From contig CALVGV010000007.1 in NCBI GenBank assembly GCA_944327195.1, forward strand, positions 1 to 59,364: 59,364 nucleotides of DNA, given 5' to 3'. Every line of letters starts with the position of its first letter. Position 1 is the first letter of the stretch. The notes under the pieces are model-generated. The model made no database searches and was not told the DNA's origin. It saw nothing but the letters and a program-made list of their open reading frames with translations. The translations under genes were made by a program, and so were the position numbers. The stretch comes from an uncultured Limosilactobacillus sp. (GTDB taxonomy: Bacteria; Bacillota; Bacilli; Lactobacillales; Lactobacillaceae). Positions 19,603 through 52,636 of this stretch are shown here, one piece after another.

Positions 19603-20832
19603 GTGGCAAAAATTCAATACGACGAAATCATGGTCCGCTACGGGGAACTATCCACCAAGGGCCACAACAAGAAGAGCTTCATCGACCGGCTTGGCACCAA
19701 CGTCCGCAAGGCCCTGCACGACTTTGACGCCGTCAAGGTCCACGCCAACCCCGACCGCCTGCACGTCCTCTTGAACGGGGCCGACAGCGACCAGGTGATT
19801 GAGCGGCTCAAGAAGGTCTTTGGGATCCAAACCTTCTCGCCCTCGCTGCGGGTTGAGAAGGACTTTGCCGCCGTTTGTGCGGCGGCCCGCGCCCTGATCG
19901 CCAAGCAGGTCGACCACCCGGTGACCTTCAAGGTTGAGACCAAGCGCAGTGACCACAAGTTCCCGATGGGGACCTTCGAAATGAACCGCGAGCTCGGTGG
20001 CTACCTGCTCAAGGAGTTTCCGGACCTACTGACGGTCGACGTCCACCAGCCGGACATCGAGATCCGGGTGGAAATCCGCCTCAACGGCATCTTCCTCACC
20101 AGCGAAATCATCAAGGGGGCCGGCGGGCTCCCGGTTGGTTCGGCTGGCAAGGGGATGATGATGCTCTCCGGCGGGATCGACTCCCCGGTTGCCGCCTACC
20201 TGGCGATGAAGCGCGGCGTCTCGCTGGAAATGGTCCACTTCTACAGTCCGCCTTACACCAGCGAACAGGCGCTGGCCAAGGCCAAGGAACTGACCGGCAA
20301 GCTGGCCCAGTACTCCGGTAGCATCCGCTTCATCCAGGTGCCCTTCACCGAGATCCAGGAAACGGTCAAGGAGAAGGTGCCGGAGGGCTACCTGATGACC
20401 GTCCAGCGCCGCTTCATGCTCCGCCTGGCGGTCGAGATTGCCAAGCGCCGTCACGGGCTGGCGATCTTCAACGGCGAGTCGCTGGGCCAGGTGGCCTCGC
20501 AGACGATGGAGTCGATGCTGGCGATCGAGGCGGTCACCAACCTACCGGTCCTGCGGCCGGTCCTCTCCTACGACAAGACCGAGATCATCAAGATCGCCGA
20601 GCAGATCGACACCTACGACCTCTCGATCCTGCCCTACGAGGACTGCTGCACCGTCTTCACCCCGCCGTCGCCAAAGACCAAGCCGAACCTGGAAAAGGCG
20701 GCCAAGTACGAGGGCTGGCTCGACGTCGAGGGCCTGATGGAGCGGGCCTTGGCCGGGATCAAGATCGAAGAAATCCACGCTGGCCAGGAGTTCCTCAACC
20801 AAAACGAGGACGTCTTTGCCGAGTTGCTCTAA
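19603..20832 (+). CDS. thiI: tRNA 4-thiouridine synthetase ThiI (no rhodanese domain)
   Basis: Adenylates U8 of tRNA and inserts sulfur to make 4-thiouridine; 409 aa. An N-terminal ferredoxin-like plus THUMP region ([18 protein letters not shown] ... [14 protein letters not shown]) is followed by a PP-loop ATPase with [17 protein letters not shown]. It ends without the C-terminal rhodanese domain of the 482-aa E. coli protein. That is normal in Firmicutes, where the partner desulfurase passes sulfur directly. A thiamine role is then unlikely. GTG start preceded by GGAGGTGC. Confidence 0.96.
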
Positions 20833-20846
20833 AATGATTCAAGCAC

Positions 20847-20964
20847 AAGCTGGGAAGAAAGGTTCAAAGCGCTCCGTACAGCTAAGTGAGAACGGGCTTT
20901 GGCACAGAATGGGCCAGAGTTCGTTCTTGCGCAGCTGCTAGGAGCGTCCTTTCTTTCCGCGATT
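20847..20964 (+). repeat. Structured dispersed element, copy 1
   Basis: A 118-bp non-coding element downstream of thiI. Its inverted counterpart is at 36,618-36,737. It folds as one long hairpin: GGAAGAAAGG/CCTTTCTTTCC, GCGCTCC/GGAGCG(T), CAGCT/AGCTG, AGAACG/CGTTCT and CTTTGGC/GCCAGAG, separated by symmetric internal loops (GTA/CTA, AAGTG/TGCGC). Both copies share the paired core almost base for base (GCGCTCCGTACAGCTAAGTG, AGAACGGGCTTTGGCAC, GAGTTCGTTCTTGCGCAGCT). It could be a structured RNA, a 3'-UTR stabiliser or a small non-autonomous mobile element. Confidence 0.85.
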
Positions 20965-20986
20965 ACTGTGTAATAGTCGAAGAATA

Positions 20987-21035
20987 GCGTAAAGAGGTTG
21001 GGAAGAAACATGTTTCTTCCCAACCTCGCTTTTTT
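20987..21035 (+). terminator. Terminator downstream of thiI and repeat copy 1
   Basis: GAGGTTGGGAAGAAA, loop CATG, TTTCTTCCCAACCTC, GC, T6. Near-perfect 15-bp stem related to those at 7,416 and 36,556. Confidence 0.92.
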
Positions 21036-21175: not shown

Positions 21176-21253
21176 ATGAATGCGCAAGTCATTGGCAGCC
21201 TGGTGATGCTCGGAATCTTGTTGATCCTGATCACGCCGACCGGGCACTTCTAA
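21176..21253 (+). CDS. 25-aa hydrophobic membrane peptide
   Basis: MNAQVIGSLVMLGILL, then ILITPTGHF: one TM helix (residues 5-20) with a short polar N-terminus and TPTGHF tail, no charged C-terminal tail. SD GGGAGGAAGCAGG lies at ideal spacing to ATG 21176. It has its own promoter and a terminator 18 bp after the stop, so it looks like a genuine monocistronic mini-gene. It does not resemble Fst/Ldr-type toxins, which carry a charged tail. Possible roles are as a regulator or subunit of a membrane complex; none can be assigned. Confidence 0.7.
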   Translation: MNAQVIGSLVMLGILLILITPTGHF

Positions 21254-35896: not shown

Positions 35897-36532
35897 ATGG
35901 GCAAGTTTGAAGTTTTGGATCACCCACTGATCCAGCACAAGTTGACGATGATTCGTGACAAGAGGGTGGGGACCAAGGTCTTCCGCGAAACGGTCAGGGA
36001 ACTATCGACCCTGATGGCCTACGAGGTCGCCCGGTCGATGCCGCTGAAGGACGTTGAGGTGGAAACGCCTATCACCAAGACCACCAAGAAGGAACTGGCC
36101 GGCAAGAAGGTGGCCATCGTGCCGATTCTGCGGGCCGGCCTCGGGATGGTCGACGGGATGACCGAACTGATCCCGGCGGCCAAGATCGGCTTCATCGGGA
36201 TGTACCGCGACGAGGAAACCCTCAAGCCGCACGAATACTTCGTTAAGTTGCCAAACGATATTTCCGAGCGGCAACTCTTCATCGTCGACCCGATGCTCGC
36301 CACCGGGGGGTCGGCAATCATGGCGATTGAGGCCTTGAAGAAGCGCGGGTGCCAAGAAAAGAACATGAAGTTCGCTTGCCTAGTGGCGGCGCCGGAAGGG
36401 GTCCAAGCCGTTCGTGAGGCCTTCCCGGACGTTGACCTCTACACGGCGGCCCTGGACGACCACCTCAACGAGGACGGCTACATCGTGCCGGGGCTCGGGG
36501 ACGCGGGAGACCGCCTCTTCGGGACGAAGTAA
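35897..36532 (+). CDS. upp: Uracil phosphoribosyltransferase
   Basis: Converts uracil plus PRPP to UMP; 211 aa. N-terminal [38 protein letters not shown]-binding [14 protein letters not shown] and C-terminal [28 protein letters not shown]. Monocistronic, ended by a strong terminator. It links functionally to the uracil permease gene 2.4 kb downstream and tdk upstream. Confidence 0.98.
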
Positions 36533-36555: not shown

Positions 36556-36597
36556 GGGGCGGGGAAGAAATGAGTTTCTTCCCCGCCTCTTTTTGAC
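36556..36597 (+). terminator. upp terminator
   Basis: GGCGGGGAAGAAA, loop TGAG, TTTCTTCCCCGCC, T5. Same loop-proximal stem as the terminators at 7,416 and 20,987. Confidence 0.93.
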
Positions 36598-36617
36598 TTC
36601 TCCTAATGTTACTCTGC

Positions 36618-36737
36618 AATTGCGGGAAAAAAGGTCGCTCCTAGCAGCTGCGCAAGAACGAACTCCGGCCCGGTCCCCGTGCCAAAGCCCGTTCTCACTT
36701 AGCTGTACGGAGCGCTTTAAACCTTTTTTTCCAGCTT
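36618..36737 (-). repeat. Structured dispersed element, copy 2 (inverted relative to copy 1)
   Basis: The reverse complement of this segment matches 20,847-20,964 over about 120 bp. It has the same outer stem (here GGAAAAAAAGG/CCTTTTTTCC), the identical GCGCTCC-CAGCT-AGAACG arms and a changed apex (CACGGGGACCGG). Base differences are concentrated in loops or preserve pairing. No ORF spans it, and it is in the upp-yibE gap. The remaining bases of this 348-bp gap (36,738-36,880) show no promoter I can defend. Confidence 0.85.
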
Positions 36738-36880
36738 CGTTTTCTGCTAGTGAAGAATTACTTATAAAAGGGTAAAGAAGGGCCGCCCCTGGGGGAGAAG
36801 GGTGTAAAATTTGATACTGATTTTGTGAATTGGTTCGGCGAGTACCTTACTGGTCGGACCAAGCAGAGAGGGGACAGAAA

Positions 36881-52395: not shown

Positions 52396-52404
52396 AGAAG
52401 GCAA

Positions 52405-52636
52405 TCTTAGTCGTTTGGGAATAGTAGCCGGCAGGGCGGTCTGCAGCGACCGTGGGGTGGTGCAACCACGGGGCTTGCCGCCGGTGAACTGGCCCGAAGC
52501 AATCAACCGCTGAACCGGCAGTAGGCGGTTGCGTGGGTTCGCGTTACGAACTTGAGCGCTACGTATGTAGAAGCACGGGTGGTACCGCGGAGTTTTTCGT
52601 CCTGTTGTCAATTGGCAACGGGGCGTTTTTATTTTC
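52405..52636 (+). promoter_or_regulatory. T-box leader controlling leuS
   Basis: The canonical T-box GGGTGGTACCGCGG lies at 52577-52590, followed by the terminator CGTCCTGTTG, loop, CAACGGGGCG, TTTTT (52598-52635). Stem I covers about 52,420-52,500 with AATAGTAG at its base and a long GC-rich apical hairpin (CCGTGG ... CCACGG). In the specifier loop GGTGAA-CTG-G the codon CTG (52489-52491) fits leucine. Uncharged tRNA-Leu would stabilise the antiterminator and raise leuS expression. T-box identity is certain; the specifier assignment is by inspection. Confidence 0.93.

Follow-up and report, generated by a model that had tools for sequence, protein, structure and literature searches.

A covarying repeat at gene 3' ends in Limosilactobacillus, very probably mobile and similar in layout to the EFAR elements of Enterococcus

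Introduction

Two inverted, near-identical segments lie in a stretch of DNA of 59,364 nucleotides (the window) from an uncultured Limosilactobacillus, and the question they raise is what kind of element they represent. The initial annotation had proposed a small RNA family, a 3'-UTR element or a MITE-like repeat, with a simple local duplication as the trivial alternative. We judge the element to be a Lactobacillaceae member of the EFAR-like miniature mobile repeats and not a small RNA family. In our estimate, a non-autonomous mobile 3'-end cassette of EFAR-like kind is the right reading with a probability of roughly three in four. Of the parts of this reading, the mobility of the covarying 3'-end cassette is very probable. 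The EFAR-like class, previously known to us only from Enterococcus, is extended to Limosilactobacillus and other Lactobacillaceae. A literature search with most subscription journals outside its coverage found no description of the repeat in lactobacilli.

Two inverted copies in the window

The segment at 20,847-20,964 matches the reverse complement of 36,618-36,737 at 107 of 120 aligned columns, confirming the positions and the near identity first given for them. In a repeat search the match between them splits into two inverted blocks, one of 59 nt (95%) and one of 74 nt (84%). Each copy was said to form one long hairpin, and the predicted RNA folds agree, at -67.5 kcal/mol (z -8.35) for copy 1 and -64.6 kcal/mol (z -7.79) for copy 2, with 0 of 200 shuffles equally stable in either case. 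The opposite strands fold more weakly (-49.2 and -54.9 kcal/mol, respectively). The stem differences singled out as preserving pairing are present in both copies. The features of the two sites are listed below; the stems are taken from the fold, and two-sided change refers to the alignment described further on.

19,603-20,832, + strand: thiI (Pfam ThiI), stop codon at 20,830-20,832, 12 nt upstream of the copy 1 match
20,845-20,984, + strand: copy 1 of the structured repeat, covariance model R1, 153.4 bits
20,852-20,862, + strand: P1 outer stem, 5' arm (partner 20,948-20,958); helix 1, two-sided change at 11 of 13 pairs
20,869-20,875, + strand: P2, 5' arm (partner 20,941-20,947); helix 2, two-sided change at 7 of 7 pairs
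20,879-20,883, + strand: P3, 5' arm (partner 20,933-20,937); helix 3, two-sided change at 6 of 8 pairs
20,886-20,903, + strand: P4 apical stem, 5' arm (partner 20,913-20,930); helix 4, two-sided change at 11 of 15 pairs
20,962-20,974, + strand: small hairpin 2 (ATTAC-TGT-GTAAT), weaker, two-sided change at 3 of 5 pairs and 76.2% of cells paired
20,994-21,027, + strand: terminator-like hairpin at the 3' end of the copy 1 unit, T-run from 21,030
35,897-36,532, + strand: upp (Pfam UPRTase), with the copy 2 unit at its 3' end
36,556-36,589, + strand: terminator-like hairpin of the copy 2 unit, T-run towards upp (+ strand), opposite to the repeat
36,598-36,739, - strand: copy 2 of the structured repeat, R1, 155.6 bits, antisense to upp and yibE/F

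Copy 1 lies behind thiI, in the sense orientation, and is equipped with a terminator. Copy 2 lies between upp and the yibE/F gene and is antisense to both, with the T-run of its terminator on the upp side; it is therefore not obviously transcribed. The direction relative to the upstream gene thus differs between the two sites, as the initial annotation had it.

Copy number and extent of the unit

A DNA search of the source genome (1.79 Mb, 52 contigs) found 17 strong copies on 12 contigs, where only two had been recognised. The covariance model built from these copies, R1, recovered the same 17 at 140-169 bits. Its other matches are 17 antisense echoes of these copies, a degenerate copy at C5:63208 (38.5 bits) and two weak ones (E 0.3-0.4). 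Two near-identical copies about 15.7 kb apart are what a simple local duplication of one window segment would leave. That explanation is already refuted by the copy count; matches also occur in other species, and its probability is negligible.

The unit is also longer than the approximately 120 bp first described, at about 180 bp. It starts near AAGCTGGGAA and runs through the long hairpin and the small hairpin, usually to a terminator. The DNA match extends through a GGCTGGGAAGAAA-type terminator hairpin in 12 of the 17 copies (query position >=187 of 211). As delimited by an automatic hairpin finder, 14 of the 17 units measure 170-186 nt and the rest 194, 224 and 232 nt. Some copies (L003, L008, L016, L017) end in unrelated hairpins. 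Hairpins like the terminator hairpin also occur where the repeat does not match, at C35, C16 and C19.

Covariation and strand polarity

Pairing was assessed in a structure-free MAFFT alignment (A4) of 47 copies from 16 genomes, a subset of the 123 copies placed below, with long and degenerate forms left out and one row (L172) clipped at its 5' end. The hairpin consists of 87.5% standard pairs, and both sides have changed at 38 of the 48 pairs, which supports the original description of a dispersed, structured, non-coding element. The covariation score is 0.473 against 0.202 for shuffled alignments (0 of 500 as high, a figure that is no probability since the copies are related), and slid-partner controls give 0.08-0.14. 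Helices 1-4 are well supported and small hairpin 2 less so.

G-U cells (241) far outnumber A-C cells (54), and the strand of copy 1 is thus the folding one, as had been proposed. The initial annotation went on to read this G-U tolerance as a pointer to RNA. Such polarity, however, is not enough to distinguish RNA from single-stranded DNA.

GCTGGGAA recurs in both the P1 5' arm and the terminator 3' arm, and antitermination by pairing of these two arms was considered. It was set aside because some copies in the source genome end in unrelated hairpins and the two arms of P1 covary.

Placement relative to genes

In total, 123 copies were placed with a simple ORF picker rather than gene annotation; L122 was left out of this set, and ends are approximate for L111, L126, L130 and the partial matches. 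By this rough ORF reading, 84 of the 123 start no more than 30 nt from a stop codon on their own strand, 113 have some gene end close by and 65 lie between convergent genes. Between tandem genes there are 34 sense and 17 antisense copies. The genome of L. panis DSM 6035 (G051) largely repeats the relative G052 in these counts; without it, 68 of 102 copies are near a stop, 93 near a gene end and 57 between convergent genes, and the tandem ratio of sense to antisense is 25 to 15.

The proximity to stop codons bears directly on the option of a small RNA family. Independent genes with their own promoters and terminators would account for a structured, multi-copy element with a terminator at copy 1, yet most copies begin close to a same-strand stop codon, no sigma-70-like promoter site was found near copy 1 or copy 2, and Rfam gave no match at gathering score for the whole window, the copy 1 region, another locus of the same genome (L006) or six loci of relatives. 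With a lax E-value, Rfam returned only sub-threshold matches at the repeat. We regard small RNA genes as very improbable.

A further alternative is a host-selected 3'-UTR RNA acting in cis. The hairpin would then be kept for stabilisation or processing of the mRNA and its mobility would be incidental, as the strong covariation, the strand polarity and the sense excess between tandem genes, with or without G051, might suggest. Copy 2 and 16 others are antisense to both neighbours, however, and antisense copies are the commoner kind between tandem genes in the source genome (3 to 1) and in G038 (4 to 2). Furthermore, repeat sites turn over between relatives, and copies without the apical arm persist. 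These observations make a purely host-selected 3'-UTR RNA improbable. The best fit is a mobile repeat ending up as a 3'-UTR element; two of the options originally listed, the 3'-UTR element and the MITE-like repeat, can thus hold together.

The positions behind thiI and upp are not conserved. A second covariance model built from 45 copies, R2, was run over 30 thiI loci, out of 50 genomes with thiI, and 20 upp loci, likewise out of 50. Only two thiI loci match, those of the source genome and of G008, where the match lies further downstream; among the upp loci, only the source genome and G019 have a match, that of G019 at a distance of about 480 nt. Behind thiI, G019 carries a plain terminator-like hairpin. 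By eye, an apparent repeat tail and a terminator-like hairpin follow upp in G008 (L237, about 2148-2223).

Distribution in relatives

With R1, 16 of 50 genomes of the genus match at E 0.001, the source genome counted, and with R2, 24 of 37 match at E 0.0001. Across the family, with 10 candidates scored for each genome, R2 matches at least 31 of 301 genomes, which fall into 9 of 40 genera. Across the order it matches at least 8 of 395 genomes at E 0.001 (8 candidates scored per genome), one of them outside the family (L291 1501-1636, - strand, genome G517, 48.8 bits). Some genomes hold many copies: G008 has at least 88 R2 matches and G051 has 44, counts that may include antisense echoes. A copy is also present in an L. 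fermentum DR9 record (58.8 bits). Relatives carry the same fold with different, lineage-specific sequences.

One long-form query found no match in phages. Partial matches occur in plasmid records of two L. fermentum and three Lactiplantibacillus or Lentilactobacillus, and neither copy 1 nor the locus outside the family (L291) matched a plasmid. An exact-pattern scan of genome contigs also found no match.

Site turnover and modules

The comparison of G051 with G052 allows individual sites to be followed. Both flanks are >99% identical at 7 of 10 loci with matching fetched flanks. The flanks of nine G051 sites lacking a fetched counterpart were then sought in G052, and at five of the nine an unrelated hairpin stands where G051 has the unit (L131/L265, L124/L266, L132/L267, L129/L268, L123/L270). 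L131/L265 has near-identical flanks, and the sole difference there is the unit versus the other hairpin. This alternative hairpin has no T-run in this direction; by eye, there is one on the other strand. Flank matches at the four other such sites are 80-99%. The remaining four sites comprise two with other genes or insertions, one without one flank and one without both. We infer that the unit arrived at the differing sites rather than having been lost from them.

No target-site duplication is visible at L131/L265, the single clean site. A plain mobile repeat had been pictured as many copies without covariation and with target-site duplications; the many copies are there, but covariation is strong and the clean empty site shows no such duplication. 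The same site speaks against a classical MITE, in which a resident IS would supply the transposase and the GAAGCTGGGAAAA and TTTTCTCCCAGCCTC ends would be the terminal inverted repeats that this enzyme cuts. The ends are near-complementary in many copies, as this would require, and the unit is oppositely oriented in two relatives at L113/L135 (around 1000-1260). Among 76 copies having a AAGCTGGGA start, however, a pattern-based count finds the matching terminator end in 37 and none in 39, and we consider a classical MITE quite unlikely. The flanks at L113/L135 are only about 90% identical, so separate insertions are as likely there as an inversion. By eye, the unit stands directly behind a stop codon in each of these two relatives.

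Units also differ internally. The two relatives carry different internal modules at one and the same site at L103/L134, where flanks are >99% identical, and at L112/L138, where part of L138 is masked; both differences would be accounted for by gene conversion. Copies in relatives may hold one or both of two 22-23-nt inserts, whose positions on the 3' strand are fixed, and some lack the apical arm. The copies of the source genome contain neither insert. Read as its reverse complement, insert 2 resembles insert 1. In five chosen two-insert copies the pairing score of the inserts is always above the shuffle mean (3.7-5.2). It exceeds all 2000 shuffles in L118 (19, maximum 12) and L114 (17, maximum 14), equals the maximum in L082 (12) and falls below it in L287 (14 of 15) and L085 (9 of 13).

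Group II introns adjoin terminator-like hairpins or repeat copies in G052, a relative of L. panis (L268, L270, L115, L104). L268 406-2230 encodes a reverse transcriptase with a maturase domain, and Rfam intron models match L268, L115 and L104. The repeat was considered as a group II intron remnant and this was rejected, as at these three loci the models match intron parts only and no shared sequence is seen by eye.

Comparison with EFAR and other repeats

EFAR, said to have been described by Venditti et al. in 2007, are reportedly modular miniature repeats of E. faecalis, mostly 170 bp long and with two stem-loops. They are said to be inserted in place of stem-loops, with part of the target stem kept at their termini. 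EFAR may be the same as Efa-1, which is listed as an intergenic E. faecalis repeat of 163 bp in 65(18) copies with an adjacent pair of stem-loops (PMC2267715). The Limosilactobacillus unit resembles EFAR in its length of approximately 170 bp, in combining a long hairpin with a second stem-loop, in its length modules and in standing in place of unrelated stem-loops. It differs in adding a small second hairpin before the terminator. It also differs in that kept target stems are not above chance: complementary flanks of 37 units did not exceed within-genome permutation, 216 and 334 of 500 permutations being as high, whereas at L131 flank complementarity is visible by eye.

For a direct comparison, 800 kb of the 2.87-Mb genome G577, which we take to be E. 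faecalis-like from a 100% match to a piece of 16S, were read for repeats. These comprise one of 281 nt, another long one (L324), two of approximately 170 nt and shorter pieces. By fold, the two repeats of approximately 170 nt have the same order of parts as the Limosilactobacillus unit: an outer stem with a bulged U near its foot, a bulge of 4-6 nt, inner stems, CCCGC, a linker and a terminator-like hairpin. R2 scores them at 30.3 and 27.1 bits, the best two values in the 80 kb tested, against a background in which unrelated hairpins reach 25.3 bits in another 100 kb. The two longer repeats gave no full-length R2 match on the right strand, and a default R2 search of G577 found no repeat (best E 7.5). 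Sequence homology to the Enterococcus repeats is accordingly marginal, the two being too diverged for a firm call. The unit works in the manner of EFAR and shares its layout, and common descent is likely rather than proven. Repeated terminator-like hairpins with a AAAAATCACTTTGG-type loop region also occur in G577, by eye without the long hairpin (L303 542-620, L309 19247-19309, L319 8861-8939).

Other families can be likened to the unit by description. The ERIC/IRU repeats of enterobacteria share the intergenic position and single long stem-loop, and bcr1-bcr3 of the Bacillus cereus group are MITE-like, intergenic and often in UTRs. To our knowledge, the former have no built-in terminator and the latter are not known for terminator replacement. 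The BOX elements of Streptococcus pneumoniae are likewise modular, hairpin-forming and intergenic. Yersinia ERICs have been reported to affect neighbouring genes via RNA hairpins (PMC2267715), and transcripts carrying bcr3 have longer half-lives (PMC3446304).

A possible route of spread

For a mobile 3'-end cassette, the following course of events may be proposed. The unit would settle at the 3' end of a gene by replacing the resident hairpin, and the same strand would then fold in the tail of the mRNA, where the hairpin may shield the 3' end of the host transcript. Movement would probably need a folded single strand, either DNA or RNA, and gene conversion may homogenise the copies. A broader version is that mobile terminators spread across the order hairpin for hairpin via a folded single strand and leave no target duplication, with selection on the fold and homogenisation by gene conversion within species. 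This generalisation is speculative and we consider it rather unlikely. Should the replacement reading hold, the 3' ends of genes would be interchangeable in these bacteria, and it becomes a testable question by what means a cassette of 180 bp swaps for a hairpin without visible target duplication.

Other features of the window

Shortly behind the copy 1 unit, 21,176-21,253 (+ strand) may encode a hydrophobic peptide of 25 residues, MNAQVIGSLVMLGILLILITPTGHF, which by our impression resembles small membrane or holin-like peptides. Further along the window, a T-box leader lies at 52,401-52,607 (+ strand), matching Rfam RF00230 at 97 bits against a gathering score of 93.
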